A DNA stretch of 37,322 nt from Pseudomonadota bacterium (GTDB lineage: Bacteria > Pseudomonadota > Alphaproteobacteria > SHVP01): positions 1 to 37,322 of the forward strand of contig JAQBYN010000030.1 in assembly GCA_027622715.1 (NCBI GenBank). The letters run 5' to 3'. A program made the translations under genes and the position numbers. The first letter of the stretch is position 1. Each line of letters begins with the position of its first letter. Positions 22,911-34,202 of the stretch are shown here, in pieces. The notes beneath the pieces were generated by a model, which saw only the letters and a list, made by a program, of their open reading frames with translations, was not told the origin of the DNA and did no database searches.

Positions 22911-23798
22911 GTGGACCATATCGAGACACCATCGGGCAAAGGCGCCGGCGACGAGAACTTTCCGGTGGGATCGTGGCTGCTGCCCAAAGCGTTGCGCCCG
23001 CATGTCACGGTCTTTTACCGGTTTGCCCGCGGCGCCGATGACATTGCCGACAATCCCGAACTGGCGCCGGACGACAAACTGGCGCGGCTGGACCGCCTTG
23101 CCGCCGCCCTGCGCGGCGAGACGCGAGACGATCCCGCGGCAGCCATTGCGCACCGGATGCGCGAATCGCTGGCGACGACCGGGGTTAGCGCGCGCCATTG
23201 CCTCGATATCCTGGATGCATTCCGCCAAGACGCGACTATGCGCCGTTATGCGGATTGGGACGCGTTGATGGGGTATTGCGCGCGATCGGCTAATCCGGTT
23301 GGGCGCTACCTGCTCGACCTGCACGGCGAGGATAGCGCCGGCTATGCAGCCTCCGACGCGTTGTGCAGCGCGCTACAGATCATCAATCACCTGCAAGACG
23401 CGCAAGACGATTTCCGCAGCCTCGACCGGGTGTATGTGCCGCAAAATTGGCTTGCCCACGAGGGGATCGACGCCAGCGCTTTGGAGGCCGCGAGGAGCGA
23501 CGCGCGTCTGCGCCGGGTTTTCGACCGATGCCTCGATGGGGTGGACGATCTGCTGGTTCGCGCCCGCCCGCTGCCGGTCGTCTTGCGCAGTGGGCGTCTT
23601 GCCCTTGAGGCGGCGGCGATCTGGTCGGTGGCACACCATCTTGCCGCAGCGCTTCGCCGGCGCGACCCCATTGCCGGGCGTGTAGCGCCGTCGCGCGCGG
23701 CGTTTACCCTGCATGCCGGCGCGGGTGTTTTGAGTGCAATGCTCCGCCGCAGCTTGGCAAGGCGTCCACACAAACGCATCGCCACGCGAAACCCATGA
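22911..23798 (+). CDS. hpnC: Hydroxysqualene synthase HpnC
   Basis: HpnC converts presqualene diphosphate to hydroxysqualene in the bacterial three-step squalene route that feeds hopanoids. The 295-residue protein is of the squalene/phytoene synthase fold. The first aspartate-rich motif is FARGADDIADNP (DDIAD, 43-47), and the second is in HLQDAQDDFRSLDRVYVP. The DENFPVGSWLLP opening (14-25) is typical of HpnC. The start is a GTG at 22911 with only a weak ribosome site. It overlaps hpnD by four bases. Confidence 0.92.
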   Translation: MDHIETPSGKGAGDENFPVGSWLLPKALRPHVTVFYRFARGADDIADNPELAPDDKLARLDRLAAALRGETRDDPAAAIAHRMRESLATTGVSARHCLDILDAFRQDATMRRYADWDALMGYCARSANPVGRYLLDLHGEDSAGYAASDALCSALQIINHLQDAQDDFRSLDRVYVPQNWLAHEGIDASALEAARSDARLRRVFDRCLDGVDDLLVRARPLPVVLRSGRLALEAAAIWSVAHHLAAALRRRDPIAGRVAPSRAAFTLHAGAGVLSAMLRRSLARRPHKRIATRNP

Positions 23799-24652
23799 CG
23801 AATTCACAAGCAGATTTGCGCCGCACCGCGCGCAACCACGTGCGGGGCGTGGTTGATCGCTCGGGCAGTTCATTTGGCTGGAGCATGCGCACCCTGCCGC
23901 CCGCACAACGCGAAGCGATGTACGCGGTCTACGCGTTTTGCCGTGAGGTCGACGACGTTGCCGACGAACCCGGCGACCCGGTCGCACGTGCGCACGAATT
24001 GGAGAACTGGCGCACCGAAATCGACGCGGTGTATGCGGGATCGCCAACCCGTCCGACGGGGGTTGCACTCGCGGGCGCCGTAAGGACCTTCGGCTTACCC
24101 AAGGACGCCTTCGGCGCGATTATCGACGGCATGGCGATGGACTTGCGCGGCGACATGACCGCGCCAACCGAAGCGGTCTTGGGCCAATACTGCGACCGGG
24201 TCGCGGGCGCGGTGGGGCGGTTGTCCCTCACCATTTTCGGCGGCGCCGATCGTGTCGCGGACGAGCTCGCCCATGCGTTGGGCGAAGCGCTGCAGTTCAC
24301 CAACATCCTGCGCGACCTCGGCGAAGACGCACAATTGGGCCGTCTGTATTTGCCGCGCGAACGACTACGGGCGCACGGCATCGTGTCCTACGATCCCGCC
24401 ACGGTACTGGCGCACCCCAACATCGGCATAGTGTGCGCAGAGGTGGCGCGGCTCGCGCGTCAGCGATTCGCCGAGAGTGCCGCGCTGGTCGCGCGCGCTG
24501 AGTCGCGGCTCAAACCGGTGCGTATGATGATTGCGGTCTATGAGGGCATCTTGAGCGGGCTTGAGCGTCGCGGCTGGGACAATCCGGGCGCGCCTTATCA
24601 CATGCCTCGCCACACCAAGTTGTGGATCGCGTTGCGTCACGGCATTTTCTGA
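23795..24652 (+). CDS. hpnD: Presqualene diphosphate synthase HpnD
   Basis: HpnD joins two farnesyl diphosphates to presqualene diphosphate, the first step of the HpnCDE pathway. The 285-residue protein has the motifs FCREVDDVADEPGD near residue 50 and QFTNILRDLGEDAQLGRLYLP near residue 167-187. The SSFGWSMRTLPPAQREAMYAVYAF segment is a standard opening for HpnD. ATGA overlap with hpnC at the start and TGATG overlap with hpnE at the end show tight coupling. Confidence 0.93.
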   Translation: MTNSQADLRRTARNHVRGVVDRSGSSFGWSMRTLPPAQREAMYAVYAFCREVDDVADEPGDPVARAHELENWRTEIDAVYAGSPTRPTGVALAGAVRTFGLPKDAFGAIIDGMAMDLRGDMTAPTEAVLGQYCDRVAGAVGRLSLTIFGGADRVADELAHALGEALQFTNILRDLGEDAQLGRLYLPRERLRAHGIVSYDPATVLAHPNIGIVCAEVARLARQRFAESAALVARAESRLKPVRMMIAVYEGILSGLERRGWDNPGAPYHMPRHTKLWIALRHGIF

Positions 24653-25908
24653 TGGGGCATTTTCATGTGGTCGGTGCGGGGTTGGCCGGGCTCGCCTGTG
24701 CAGTTGCGCTGAGCCGCGCGGGACGCCCCGTAACACTTTATGAGGCCGCACCGCAGGCCGGCGGTCGGTGCCGGTCATACTTTGACGACCACCTCGGGCG
24801 CACCATCGACAACGGCAACCACTTGTTGATGAGCGGCAATACGGTTGCGCTGGCGTTCGTGGACACCATCGGTTCGCGCGACACGCTGACCGGACCCGAC
24901 CGGGCCGAGTTTCCGTTTGTCGATTTGCGGACGAACCAGCGCTGGGTGGTGCGACCCGGCGCGAGCCCCCTGCCCTGGTGGTTGCTGGTGCCTTCGAGGC
25001 GCGTGCCACAGACCCGGCTGGCCGATTATCGATCCGGGTTGGGTCTGCTTTTTGCCGGCTGCGCCGCCACGGTGAACGAGGTGTTCGATCCAGCCGGCGC
25101 GCTGTACCAACGGTTTTGGGAACCGTTGGCGGTGGCGGCACTGAACTGCGATCCGACCGAGGGCGCGGCGGCCCTATTGCGACCGGTGCTGCTCCGCACG
25201 TTCGGGCGCGGGGCCGCCTATTGCCAGCCGCTGGTTGCGGCGCGCGGCCTTTCTGAAACCTTCGCCGATCCGGCTGTGCGATTCATTGAGGCGCATGGCG
25301 GCACGGTTTGTTTTGGTGCGACCTTGCGGGCGACCGAGTGGCGCGACGATACGCCCATCGCGTTGCGTTTTGACTCCGAATCCGTACCCATCGCAAGCGG
25401 TGACCGCGTCGTTCTTGCTGCGCCGCCAACGGCGGTACAACGCCTGCTGCCAGGGCTAACGGTGCCGGAAGGATCGAACGCCATCGTCAACGCGCATATG
25501 CGCTTTGACGGGCCCGTCGATTGGCCGTGGCGCGCACCGTTGGCCGGACTGATCGGCGGCACCGCGCAATGGATCTTTCACCGTGACGACATTGTCAGCG
25601 TCACGGTCAGTGCGGCGGATGCGTTGGCCGAACAACCTAGTGAGGACATCGCCGCAATTCTTTGGCAAGACGTGGCGCGGGCGCTGGGCCGATCCGACGT
25701 GACGCCGCCGGCCATTCGCGTGGTCAAAGAAAAGCGCGCGACATTTCACCAGACCCCGGCGCAAGTGGCGCGGCGGCCCGGACCGCGGACGCGTTGGCCG
25801 GGTGTTTTTCTGGCGGGCGACTGGACCGATACCGGGCTGCCAGCGACGATCGAAGGCGCGATTCTGAGCGGCGAGCGCGCTGCCCGCGAGGCGATGACTA
25901 GCCGGTAG
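24652..25908 (+). CDS. hpnE: Hydroxysqualene dehydroxylase HpnE
   Basis: This FAD-dependent amine-oxidase-fold enzyme (418 residues) reduces hydroxysqualene to squalene. The N-terminal dinucleotide motif VVGAGLAGLACA (6-17) ends with the ribose-binding Glu31 (LYEAAPQAGGRC). The C-terminal FAD segment is FLAGDWTDTGLPATIEGAILSG. The start at 24652 overlaps the hpnD stop; an in-frame ATG at 24622 would be inside hpnD. It is the last gene of the + strand run and converges on dxs with a 13-base gap. Squalene-hopene cyclase is not in this window. Confidence 0.92.
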   Translation: MGHFHVVGAGLAGLACAVALSRAGRPVTLYEAAPQAGGRCRSYFDDHLGRTIDNGNHLLMSGNTVALAFVDTIGSRDTLTGPDRAEFPFVDLRTNQRWVVRPGASPLPWWLLVPSRRVPQTRLADYRSGLGLLFAGCAATVNEVFDPAGALYQRFWEPLAVAALNCDPTEGAAALLRPVLLRTFGRGAAYCQPLVAARGLSETFADPAVRFIEAHGGTVCFGATLRATEWRDDTPIALRFDSESVPIASGDRVVLAAPPTAVQRLLPGLTVPEGSNAIVNAHMRFDGPVDWPWRAPLAGLIGGTAQWIFHRDDIVSVTVSAADALAEQPSEDIAAILWQDVARALGRSDVTPPAIRVVKEKRATFHQTPAQVARRPGPRTRWPGVFLAGDWTDTGLPATIEGAILSGERAAREAMTSR

Positions 25909-25921
25909 CGCATACGCGCGA

Positions 25922-27850
25922 TCAGGCGCGGGCGGGCGTCTCGAGCGTTTCGTTGTAGCCCAATGCCTGGAGCACGGTGGCGACGATCTGCGGCGCGTTG
26001 AGTCCGGCGAGGTCGTATTGCTTTTCGGGTTTGTCGTGGTCGATGAAGAAATCCGGCAGGCACATCGGGCGGAATTTCACGCCCGACTCGAGCAGGCCTT
26101 CACGGGCGAGGAAGTGCGTCACCAACGTCGCGAAGCCGCCCATCGAGCCGTCTTCGATGGTAATCAGCACTTCGTGTTCCGCGGCCAAGCGGCGCGCGAT
26201 GCTTTCGTCAAACGGTTTGGCGAACCGTGCGTCGACCACCGTCGTAGACAAGCCGCGCGCGCCCAATATCTCCGCCGCTTTGAGCGATTCATGCAACCGG
26301 GTGCCGTAGGACATGATCGCAACCTTGGTGCCTTCGCGGACGACGCGGGCTTTGCCGATCGCCAATGGGGTGCCCTTGTCGGGTAGTTCGACGCCCATCG
26401 ATTCGCCGCGCGGATAGCGGATCGCCGACGGTCCGTCGTCGATCTGCGCCGCGGTCGCGACCATGTGCATGAGTTCAGCCTCGTCGCTGGGCGCCATCAG
26501 CACAAAGCCCGGCAAGCTACCGAGGAATGCAATGTCGTAGGAGCCTTGATGGGTAACACCGTCAGCACCGACCATGCCGGCACGGTCCATCGCAAAGCGG
26601 ACCGGCAAACGCTGGATTGCCACATCGTGGACGACTTGATCGTAAGCGCGTTGCAAGAAGGTCGAGTAGATCGTGGCAAAGGGTTTCAACCCGTCGGCCG
26701 CCATCCCGGCGCAAAAGGTCACGCCATGCTGTTCGGCAATGCCAACATCGAACGAGCGATTGGGAAACCGTTCGGCGAATTTGTCGATGCCGGTGCCGGT
26801 GGGCATCGCCGCGGTAATGGCGACGATGCGGTCGTCCTGCTCGGCCTCGGCGATGAGCGCTTTGGCGTAAACATTTGTGTAGGACGGCGGTCCGCCTGTC
26901 GCCTTGACCTGTTGGCCGGTGACGACATCGAATTTCGAAACCCCGTGATACTTGTCGGTGGCGCTCTCCGCGGGCTCGTAGCCCTTGCCTTTTTGCGTGA
27001 CGACATGGACGAGGATGGGCCCCTCACCGCGCGAGTCTTTGGCGTTGCGCAACACCGGCAGCAGGTGGTCGAGATTATGACCGTCGATCGGGCCGACGTA
27101 GTAGAAGCCCAATTCCTCAAACAGCGTGCCGCCGGTCAGCATGCCGCGGGCATATTCTTCGGCGCGGCGCGCGGCATTTTCGAAGGGGCGCGGAAACTTC
27201 TTGGCGAGCAATCGGCCGAGATGACGCATCGAGCGATACGGTTTGGCGGAAATAAGACGCGCGAGATAGGCGCTCATCGCACCGACAGGCGGCGCAATCG
27301 ACATGTCGTTATCGTTGAGGATGACGATCAGCCGGCTTTTGGCAGCGCCGGCGTTGTTCATTGCTTCGTACGCCATCCCGGCACTCATCGCGCCATCGCC
27401 GATCACGGCGACGACGTTATTGTCGGCGCCGCGCAAATCGCGGGCGACGGCAAAGCCGAGGGCAGCCGAGATCGAGGTTGAACTATGCGCCGCGCCGAAC
27501 GGGTCGTATTCGCTCTCGCGCCGGCTGGTGAAACCCGACAGGCCCCCACCTTGGCGCAGCGTGCGAATGCGATCGCGACGACCGGTCAAAATTTTGTGCG
27601 GATACGCCTGATGCCCGACATCCCAGAGGATTTTGTCGTCCGGCGTGTTGAAGAGGTAATGCAACGCGACCGTGAGTTCGACGACGCCGAGACCCGCGCC
27701 GAGGTGGCCGCCGGTATTCGAGACCGCGTCGATCATTTCCTGGCGCAGTTCGTCGGCCAGCTGCCGTAGCTGGTTTTCCTTCAATTGCCGAAGATCGGCC
27801 GGTAGTGCGACCGTATCTAAGAGTGGCGTTTTGCTGTCGTTTTGGCTCAC
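25922..27850 (-). CDS. dxs: 1-deoxy-D-xylulose-5-phosphate synthase
   Basis: DXS condenses pyruvate and glyceraldehyde 3-phosphate, the first step of the MEP isoprenoid pathway, in the cytoplasm with thiamine diphosphate and Mg2+. The protein has 642 residues with [14 protein letters not shown] (47-60, His49), [15 protein letters not shown] (77-91, His80), the ThDP motif GDGAMSAG (151-158) to NDNDMSI (179-185), the catalytic IAEQH segment near residue 370, and [16 protein letters not shown] chose a GTG start at 27850, preceded by AGAGGG, because the longer in-frame reading to 28105 has no DXS similarity. It supplies precursors used by the convergent hpnCDE genes. Confidence 0.95.
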
Positions 27851-28149
27851 CGTGATCCCTCTTGCTTGACAGCACCGTCGCGCGCCGCGGCGCTGACCAA
27901 GGCGACAAATACGTAGACTGCTGGACGCCGTCAGTCGAGGGCGATTTCCGGTGCCTTTGGGCGCAGTCGGCCCACCGCACAGGTGGCGCCCACGTCGATT
28001 CACCCCGCGCACCGGTGGCATCGGCGGATGCTGCGGGTTCGGTGCTGCCCCACGCCATGCAATAATCGAGGCGTATTCGCCGGACTCCGCGTTGTTGGTC
28101 GGCAAACGTTAACGAATGGCACGTTCGTGAGGACCCTGATATCTCGGAA
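27851..28149. other. Gene-free divergent region between dxs and the di-haem oxidoreductase gene
   Basis: About 300 bases separate the two divergent starts. Readings in all frames are short or lack protein character. The exonuclease VII small-subunit gene (xseB), which often precedes dxs in proteobacteria, is not here. I see a CGTTAACG palindrome at about 28110 but no convincing promoter pair or terminator. Confidence 0.5.
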
Positions 28150-31358: not shown

Positions 31359-32339
31359 CTACAGTAGGCCGGCCTCGCGGGCCGGTTGTTGAATCAAATC
31401 GTGGAAGCGCGATAACTGGTGTGAGTAGCCGACCGCGGACCGGCCGACCACGTTGATCATCCCCGCCATGCCGCACAGGATGAAGAGGTGCCGCACGGTG
31501 AGAAAGAACGGCAATAGCGCGCGTTCATCGGCGCTGAGTGGGCGTACAGCGTTGTAGCCATCCAGGAACGCAGCGTTGATGTCGGGTGCGACGCCGAGAT
31601 AGTCGTTACGCCACACGAAATGCATCAATTCCTTGGCGAAAAAGTCGGCGCCGCAATTGTCCCAGTCGAGAAACGTCAACCGCCCGTCGTCGGCAAGGAA
31701 GATGTTGTGGGTGTGAATGTCGCCGTGGCAGGCGCCGTAAGGCACCACCAGTCCCTCCAGCCGCGCCGAAGCGCGCTCAATGAGCGCGGCATAGAGTTTT
31801 CCCTCGACCGAGTCCGCACCGACCATCGTCATCAGCGCAGGACGATTGCGGGCCATGAATGCCGGCGAGTTGACATCGACTGGCGCGGGCGGCTGAAAGC
31901 TCTCAGCAACACCGTGCATGCGCGCAACGATACCGCCGAGACGATGCGCGTCGTCCGGTGTGCCGTGACGGGCCATCGGCGCGCCATCGGCCCATGTAAA
32001 AAGCGAGAGATGGCGTGGGCCTTCGGGCGCAAGAACGGTGATGAAGTCATCGCCCGCGCGCGTCGCTACCGGTGCGGCGGCATCTAGCCCGTGGTTCGCG
32101 TGAAAGCGGATGAGCGCCATTTCATAGCGAACTTGATCCTCGGTACGGAACTTGTGGCGCAAGACGCGCGCCGCGCAGCGATGTTGGCCCACGCGCACGA
32201 GGTAGACATCGTTGACGCCGCGCGACATCAACTCGGCATATACCGGGCCGCCGAGGTCGTAATCGACGCCGATTGCCTCGGCGAGGGCATCGGCGCGCAA
32301 GATGCTGTGGGTGATCGGTATTTCGGGGATCGTCGTCAT
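31359..32339 (-). CDS. Aminoglycoside phosphotransferase-fold kinase (APH/SrkA-like)
   Basis: This 326-residue cytoplasmic protein has the APH/choline-kinase fold. The N-lobe has NDVYLVRVGQHRCAARVLRHKF (about 43-64), with arginine where many kinases have the ATP-binding lysine. The catalytic loop ACHGDIHTHNIF (about 208-219) has the expected Asp and Asn, followed by the metal motif FLDWDNCGADF. The pattern resembles the homoserine-kinase-like/SrkA branch rather than drug-resistance enzymes. The substrate is unknown. It probably shares a transcript with the downstream allA-like gene and is divergent from the alpha/beta hydrolase homologue. Confidence 0.85.
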   Translation of the reverse strand: MTTIPEIPITHSILRADALAEAIGVDYDLGGPVYAELMSRGVNDVYLVRVGQHRCAARVLRHKFRTEDQVRYEMALIRFHANHGLDAAAPVATRAGDDFITVLAPEGPRHLSLFTWADGAPMARHGTPDDAHRLGGIVARMHGVAESFQPPAPVDVNSPAFMARNRPALMTMVGADSVEGKLYAALIERASARLEGLVVPYGACHGDIHTHNIFLADDGRLTFLDWDNCGADFFAKELMHFVWRNDYLGVAPDINAAFLDGYNAVRPLSADERALLPFFLTVRHLFILCGMAGMINVVGRSAVGYSHQLSRFHDLIQQPAREAGLL

Positions 32340-32397: not shown

Positions 32398-33192
32398 ATG
32401 CCTTACGTCGAGACCGAGAAAGCGCAGCTGTACTACGAACTCCAGGGCGACCCCGGGCCGGTCGTCACGCTGGCCCATGGTGGCGGCGGCAACATGCTGG
32501 AATGGTTTCATCAAATGCCCGCGTTGCTTGCGGGCTACCGCGTGCTGCTGTTCGATCAACGCGGTTGGGGCCGCTCTACCTGCGCCGTCGATGACATGCA
32601 ATTCCGCTATTTTCCGACTGACGCCCTTGCCGTGATGGACGCGGCCGGGGTCGAGCGCACAGCCATCGTCTCGCATGCGATTGGCGGTTGGACCGCGCTA
32701 GCCACCGCGATCGCCGCGCCTGAGCGTGTTGCCGGCATCGTCATGTCGGCGAGCGGTGGCGGGATTTTGTCGGACGGTATCTTACGGGTGTTTCGCGAGG
32801 GGCCGGGCCGCGTGGTTGGCGAGCGCGGCAAGATCCATCAGGTGATTACGGCGCCGGACTTTCCCGCGCGCGAACCCGCGTTGTTTTTCCTGATGCAGCA
32901 GATCGCCACGTTGAACCAGGACGTCGGTGCGTTCATGAAGCGCTCGCTTGACCCGTCGAACGGCGTTACCCAAGAGCGCCTTAAGGGTTACACCGTTCCG
33001 ACGTTGGTGATTGGGGGCAGCGAGAGCCGCATCATCCCGCCCGATGTGTTGCGCGACGCGAGCACGCAGATCCCTGGCGCCGAGTTTCAAGAAATCGCGG
33101 GCGCAGGGCATGCACCGCCGTTCGAGAAGCCGGCGGCGTTCAATGCCATGACCCTAGCGTTCCTCGCCCGGCACTTTCCGCCGCGCGGTTAA
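32398..33192 (+). CDS. Alpha/beta-hydrolase fold protein lacking the catalytic Ser and Asp
   Basis: The 264-residue protein aligns well with the alpha/beta hydrolase family: the oxyanion HGGGGN (27-32), FDQRGWGRS (52-60) and the late histidine in GAGHAPPFEKP (His238). The nucleophile elbow, normally G-x-S-x-G-G, reads SHAIGG (92-97), so Ala94 sits where the catalytic serine should be. The acid position, normally Asp in a G-x-x-D-x-x-x-P context, is Ser210 in GGSESRIIPP. Both codons read clearly (GCG, AGC), and the frame is intact throughout. It is thus probably not a classical esterase; a binding role or different chemistry is possible, as in cofactor-free members. It is divergent from the phosphotransferase gene. 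Confidence 0.87.
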   Translation: MPYVETEKAQLYYELQGDPGPVVTLAHGGGGNMLEWFHQMPALLAGYRVLLFDQRGWGRSTCAVDDMQFRYFPTDALAVMDAAGVERTAIVSHAIGGWTALATAIAAPERVAGIVMSASGGGILSDGILRVFREGPGRVVGERGKIHQVITAPDFPAREPALFFLMQQIATLNQDVGAFMKRSLDPSNGVTQERLKGYTVPTLVIGGSESRIIPPDVLRDASTQIPGAEFQEIAGAGHAPPFEKPAAFNAMTLAFLARHFPPRG

Positions 33193-34202
33193 GCCGCCAC
33201 AAACGTCCAGAAATAGCCGTCGGGCGCGCGGAACGAGAATGACCGGTTACCAAACTCGTCGGTGCGAACGGCCGTCACATCGGTTGCGCCGCCTGCCGTC
33301 ACCTTGTCGCGCATCGCGGCAATTTCGGTGACGCGGTAAGTGTAGAGCGAAAACCCGAGGTTACCGGCCGCCGAGTCGGCAACGCGGTTCTCCCCTTGGG
33401 TATCCCCGGTGATGCGAAATATGCGCAGCTTGCCAGAGCGCTGCATGCCCGGTGGATCGCCCGGGCGCACATCGTCGAAGTCCGATTCGCGCAACAGCTC
33501 GCCGTCGGCGAGTGGCACGACCACCGCCGGCATCGAGCCTGCTCTGGCGAGATAGTCGACATCGTGACGGTGCAACGCGAGCACGTCTTCGTAGAAATCG
33601 AGTTTTGCGACGTCAGATTCGGCGATACACAAACCGACTTGGGTGAACTGACTGGCGCGAAACCGGCAGTCATTGTTGATGGCGCCAAAGTGCGGCAGGT
33701 CGTGGGCGTAGCGCTGCACTAGGACGTGCCGGCTGTGCGGTTGAAAGAAAATGAACTCGCGCTTGCAGCGGATTTCATCCTCGAACGGATTCTCGGTGCG
33801 GCCCGGTTCGTTGATGGGATGAAATATAGGGCCGATCGTGTATACGGGCTCGCCCCGCGCTTGCAATGCCGCGGCGAAGTTGGCGACTTGCATCACTTCG
33901 TTAGATTTAGCGACCGCCCAGCGGTTGCCGGGCGTGCGCAGCGGCACTAGGCCCAATCCGGGGCCGAGTGGCTTGTCCCACCGCATCAGTCGAACGAGGC
34001 TGTGATCGGCCTCCTGATGGAGCAAGCGCACCGATTCCAAGGCAGAGTCGACCCCGTAAAGGTGGCCGGCCTCGGCGGCGGTCAACCTGCCGCGCGGGCC
34101 CGGCCGGTAGCCAAACAGGGCCCAATAACGCATCGCGACGTCCAAATCGGGAACGCCGATTCCGACCTCGTACACCCCGCCAACAACGGCCGGTTCGGTC
34201 AT
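33189..34202 (-). CDS. VOC (glyoxalase/dioxygenase) superfamily protein, multi-domain
   Basis: The 337-residue protein seems to hold two to three vicinal-oxygen-chelate modules. The first begins VGIGVPDLDVAMRYWALFGYRPG (about 12-34), the second QVGLCIAESDVAKLDFYEDVLAL (about 207-229), and the C-terminus ends with a typical FGNRSFSFRAPDGYFWTFVAA strand. Metal ligands cannot be assigned with confidence. The function is unknown; relatives include glyoxalases and ring-cleaving dioxygenases. The ATG at 34202 is chosen because the long upstream reading (to 34550) crosses into the divergent DUF4129 gene and is not VOC-like. Its stop overlaps that of the alpha/beta hydrolase homologue. Confidence 0.8.
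   Translation of the reverse strand: MTEPAVVGGVYEVGIGVPDLDVAMRYWALFGYRPGPRGRLTAAEAGHLYGVDSALESVRLLHQEADHSLVRLMRWDKPLGPGLGLVPLRTPGNRWAVAKSNEVMQVANFAAALQARGEPVYTIGPIFHPINEPGRTENPFEDEIRCKREFIFFQPHSRHVLVQRYAHDLPHFGAINNDCRFRASQFTQVGLCIAESDVAKLDFYEDVLALHRHDVDYLARAGSMPAVVVPLADGELLRESDFDDVRPGDPPGMQRSGKLRIFRITGDTQGENRVADSAAGNLGFSLYTYRVTEIAAMRDKVTAGGATDVTAVRTDEFGNRSFSFRAPDGYFWTFVAA

Follow-up and report, generated by a model that had tools for sequence, protein, structure and literature searches.

The window, a 37,322-nucleotide stretch of DNA from a 3.1-Mb alphaproteobacterial genome (G000), contains the gene for P0001, an alpha/beta-hydrolase (ABH)-fold protein that lacks two of the three residues of the catalytic triad. 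Its position, its active-site features and its neighbors are collected in Table 1. The gene starts with ATG, and an MPxV N terminus is common to all orthologues. P0001 matches Pfam Abhydrolase_1 over its full length with 91.3 bits (cut-off, 25.8), which places it in the superfamily. Its best curated profile match is TIGR02427, the PcaD enol-lactonase, but the score of 106.4 bits does not reach that profile's cut-off of 255.85 bits. An AlphaFold2 model built from three sequences (mean pLDDT 72, pTM 0.77) shows an ABH fold; its confidence is low for the oxyanion loop (pLDDT <50 at residues 29 to 32), residues 56 to 62 and part of the cap. The first-pass annotation had described an intact frame with an ABH fold, and the open frame, the profile match and the model bear this out.

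Table 1. Coordinates of P0001, its active-site features, neighboring genes and other ABH proteins of the same genome (window positions unless a locus is named)
Feature	Coordinates	Strand	Remarks
ABH-fold protein P0001, without Ser nucleophile and Asp acid	32398..33192	+	264 aa; open frame; Abhydrolase_1; predicted ABH fold
HGGGGN oxyanion-loop region, residues 27-32	32476..32493	+	H27, G28, G29, G31 and N32 invariant in clade
Nucleophile elbow, S92-H93-A94-I95-G96-G97	32671..32688	+	A94 instead of Ser; H93 invariant in clade, Gln in sister clade
S117-A118-S119, end of beta6 (alternative acid position)	32746..32754	+	No Asp/Glu
Cap motif GPG[RK]xVG, residues 135-141	32800..32820	+	Specific to nucleophile-less clade
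E209-S210, turn after beta7	33022..33027	+	Ser in 4/4 clade members versus Asp in 22/22 other aligned family members
H238, catalytic-base position kept, within GAGHAPP	33109..33111	+	From sequence alignment
APH-like phosphotransferase (PF01636)	31359..32339	-	Divergent, 58 bp from P0001 gene; synteny kept in G001
Two-domain VOC/glyoxalase-like protein	33189..34202	-	Convergent, ends overlap by 4 bases; kept in G001 (78%) and G006 (51%)
Tandem double-ABH GxHTG proteins, ~580 aa	e.g. L144:35-1726; also L148, L150, L156	- (L144)	Many in G000
ABH clade with elbow Ala, His kept, Asp near beta6 end (IVDSG/VVDPG/VADPG)	L142:867-1778; L145:596-1513; L148:13021-13860	-; +; -	

Active-site residues

Sequence alignment with Est816, the nearest solved relative, pairs the elbow Ser, the Asp and the His of that enzyme with A94 (codon GCG), S210 (AGC) and H238 (CAT) of P0001. 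These are the residues and the numbering given in the first-pass annotation, which had placed Ala94 at the elbow and Ser210 at the acid position and had noted that His238 was retained. The 22 further members of the wider family in the alignment all have Ser, Asp and His at the triad positions, and the departure of P0001 from the triad is therefore not noise. The ABH fold can place its catalytic acid at either of two sites, one following beta7 and the other where beta6 ends (PMC7034887). P0001 has no Asp or Glu at either position: the turn after beta7 reads GGSESRIIPP (G207-S208-E209-S210), with S210 at the acid site, and residues 111 to 123, which include S117-A118-S119 at the end of beta6, contain no acid. 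The elbow position that would hold the Ser, Cys or Asp nucleophile of a hydrolase is Ala, Ala, Gln and Ala in P0001 and its three orthologues. Lacking an elbow nucleophile and an acid at the beta6 and beta7 positions, P0001 does not count as a classical serine hydrolase, and we infer that it no longer hydrolyzes substrates by the serine route.

Hydrolysis in the same pocket by another nucleophile or by activated water is unlikely. S117, S119, S210 and H93 are invariant near the expected pocket and would be the residues to consider, but the apex of the elbow carries no alternative residue, Ser or Thr at positions 117 and 119 is common in the intact relatives too, and the beta6 and beta7 positions supply no acidic residue for a dyad.

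Orthologues, paralogues and gene neighborhood

The P0001 clade has four known members, found in four genomes and three genera of one alphaproteobacterial family. Whole-genome searches identified orthologues with 84% identity in G001, which belongs to the same genus, 52% in G006 and 47% in G004, and a contig scan for relatives of P0001 returned two loci only, both of them the G006 and G004 orthologues. No further nucleophile-less relatives at an E value of 1e-33 or better were found among the best six candidates scored per genome in 385 genomes of the class and 398 of the phylum. The elbows of the three orthologues read SHAIGG, GHQVGG and GHALGA, none with a nucleophile. Position 94 is thus not always Ala (Ala in three of four members, Gln in one, where it could crowd the pocket), while all four keep His238, the HGG loop and a Ser in place of the acid. 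A private mutation or sequencing error at position 94, which Ser in close orthologues would have indicated, does not account for a nucleophile that is absent from every member in four genomes.

The nearest relatives outside the clade, one each in G000, G001 and G002, have a QSMAG elbow with Ser as well as Asp and His, and more distant aligned family members all have the complete set. A tree built from 26 proteins groups the four that lack the nucleophile together (100/99), with the three intact paralogues as their sister clade (100/99); support for the two combined is 98/97. Because the nucleophile-less clade is sister to intact Ser-Asp-His paralogues from the same bacterial family, the triad was lost after a duplication. 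The simplest account of these sequences would be one duplication within the family, after which one of the copies lost both residues. The intact paralogue encoded by G000 itself (G000:C33:2119-2889) is 40% identical to P0001 over its full length and, like P0001, has a divergent APH-like neighbor; it differs in its QSMAG elbow with Ser and in the Asp at the acid site. Since the same genomes hold an intact paralogue and a triad-less protein, the change of function can be tested directly.

Selection on the P0001 gene was assessed by comparing G000 with G001 (NG86). With dN of 0.095 to 0.100 and dS of 1.04 to 1.05, dN/dS is ~0.09, similar to the neighboring genes (0.05 to 0.10), and the gene is under purifying selection. 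P0001 differs between the two genomes at 16% of its amino acids and the intact paralogue at 32%, assuming that the paralogue pair is orthologous. The triad loss is fixed in the clade over an identity range of 47 to 84%, and the invariant residues specific to the clade are K8, Y71, H93, F132, G135, G137, V140, L172, S210, A221 and P261, in an alignment of four sequences in which ~40% of columns are invariant. Such conservation is typical of a protein that has a new role and is maintained in it. As the same triad loss is found in its relatives, P0001 has probably moved to a different job rather than decayed. It is a duplicate that has lost two catalytic residues, as a decaying copy or an assembly error might be, but the loss is common to four separately assembled genomes, dN/dS is low and P0001 evolves more slowly than the intact copy; decay or error is very improbable and is largely refuted by the orthologues. 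The first-pass argument against simple decay is therefore well supported.

The APH-like gene has homologues near the intact paralogues as well: the divergent neighbor on contig C33 of G000 is 36% identical to it, and in G001 a homologue lies ~3 kb from the intact paralogue. The VOC protein on the other side of P0001 has a weak Pfam match, and in G006 one small gene lies between the P0001 orthologue and the VOC gene. Among the 41 genomes searched, matches to the VOC family were confined to the five members of this bacterial family that have one or the other ABH clade, and none was found in the remaining 36; shared ancestry could explain this distribution. The family is multicopy in four of the five genomes, with six copies in G006. 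We considered whether the VOC protein could be a metal-dependent extradiol dioxygenase and found no support for this, as the usual ligand positions look unconserved by eye in an alignment of the paralogues. Where a VOC locus has a nearby ABH gene, the majority of these have a non-Ser ABH; an enrichment was not retained, as the genome background is already ~24 of 42 ABH genes among the matches listed.

A SAM-dependent methyltransferase adjoining the G006 orthologue was dropped as a specific partner because its family has 42 copies in the window's genome. This family of ~390-aa proteins (e.g., L041:914-2086, minus strand) has copies across the same bacterial family, 64 of them in G006, and a search of 11 genomes outside that bacterial family at an E value of 1e-15 found none. 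The window also has, at 22911-28105, a row of genes for two squalene/phytoene synthases, an amine oxidase and a DXS-like protein, which looks like a block of hopanoid (hpnCDE-type) and isoprenoid genes.

Possible roles: nucleophile-free catalysis or ligand binding

The predicted structure of P0001 matches esterases, enol-lactonase, C-C bond hydrolases, strigolactone receptors and NDRG proteins with Z scores of ~24 to 26 (~25 for Est816, enol-lactonase and the C-C bond hydrolases), but function cannot be read from a common fold. The PcaD enol-lactonase (enol-lactonase Z, 25.4) and the meta-cleavage (C-C) hydrolases are among the best matches; these enzymes use Ser-His-Asp, unlike P0001. To our knowledge, few ABH proteins that have lost both nucleophile and acid have been characterized.

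Tomato methylketone synthase 1 (MKS1) is an ABH-fold enzyme without the canonical triad in which a conserved His acts as base together with a neighboring Thr (PMC10548524). P0001 resembles it in residue pattern, with the triad lost (A94, S210) and the His base kept (H238); MKS1 differs in being a plant protein of the MES group that completes its hydrogen-bond pattern with the Thr and decarboxylates beta-keto acids. The cofactor-free ABH dioxygenases of the HOD/AqdC type cleave quinolone rings with O2. In HOD, QDO and AqdC, the general base is the His of a His-Asp dyad (H251-D126 in HOD), AqdC has a natural Ala at the elbow, and in HOD the elbow Ser is preceded by His100, a pocket-lining residue (PMC10548524). 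By motif position, HOD His100 corresponds to H93 of P0001. The first-pass annotation had offered two readings, a binding protein or cofactor-free chemistry as in some ABH members. Published cases point either way, with MKS1 and the AqdC group on the side of chemistry and NDRG-type proteins on that of a nonenzymatic role. The parallel with the dioxygenases holds only in part, as P0001 has no acid at S210 or within residues 111 to 123. Because the dioxygenases use a His-Asp dyad and P0001 has no Asp at the known positions, MKS1 is the nearer precedent.

The reading that we favor, with a probability of about one half, is that P0001 carries out cofactor-free chemistry of the MKS1 kind with His as its only catalytic residue. 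Under such a mechanism no acyl-enzyme would form. The substrate would sit in the old pocket, held by the amides of the oxyanion loop, H93 and the new cap motif, and His238, with Ser210 or the beta6 serines to orient it, would by itself act as general base or acid. Against this reading, no acidic partner for the His is visible in the sequence, the Gln at position 94 of one member could crowd the pocket, and the model has low confidence at the oxyanion loop. The reaction could be a decarboxylation, C-C lysis, elimination or isomerization. The VOC neighbor, the steadiest genomic partner (G000, G001 and G006), may share a pathway with P0001.

The hydrolase pocket might instead have become the binding site of a nonenzymatic ligand-binding or regulatory protein, comparable to NDRG, the main rival reading and one that we consider possible. 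NDRG proteins are regarded as nonenzymatic. They share the ABH fold with the P0001 model (Z, 23.8) but are eukaryotic and only ~14% identical to P0001; NDRG2, NDRG3 and the strigolactone receptors are all among its close fold matches. The loss of both nucleophile and acid, and the presence of either Ala or Gln at position 94, would be expected if chemistry there had become irrelevant, and the cap motif, new and conserved, could serve as a surface for a ligand or partner. Against binding, His238 and the HGG loop are invariant and S210 is fixed despite the variation at position 94, an indication that the surroundings of the His matter. The retention of His238 by itself is weak evidence for catalysis in an alignment of four sequences with ~40% of columns invariant, but position 94 varies where His238 and Ser210 both stay the same, a contrast that leans, across these four sequences, toward His-based chemistry.

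Nucleophile-less ABH proteins across the genome

A survey of G000 scored 56 ABH domains among the matches listed, with low-scoring second domains being uncertain. The elbow carries Ser, Asp or Cys in only 19 of these and His (GxHTG) in 23, mostly in tandem proteins of ~580 aa; the remainder have Ala, Gln, Asn, Trp, Gly, Lys or Glu. Counted by gene, ~24 of the 42 surveyed lack Ser, Asp or Cys at the elbow. On the basis of this survey, P0001 is one case in a lineage rich in nucleophile-less ABH proteins.

In a tree, the nucleophile-less ABH proteins of G000 fall into at least three groups, namely the P0001 clade, an Ala clade with a beta6 Asp and the GxHTG proteins, and there were apparently at least three separate losses of the nucleophile. 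Judged by motif, the Ala clade (L142, L145 and L148) resembles cofactor-free dioxygenases of the AqdC type. We tentatively propose that P0001 represents a bacterial class of ABH enzymes in which one catalytic His, assisted by H93 and Ser210, carries out cofactor-free chemistry in the absence of a nucleophile and an acid, and that its lineage has repeatedly made hydrolase folds nonhydrolytic. Judging from the survey, the bacterial family looks like a natural experiment in the conversion of hydrolase folds to other uses. Our limited literature search terms returned no paper on GxHxG elbows. Close tandem GxHTG proteins were found, among 240 genomes of the class, only in this bacterial family; relatives of a GxHTG protein, by overall match rather than by elbow, are also present outside it, for instance on plasmids of Rhizobium and Novosphingobium.
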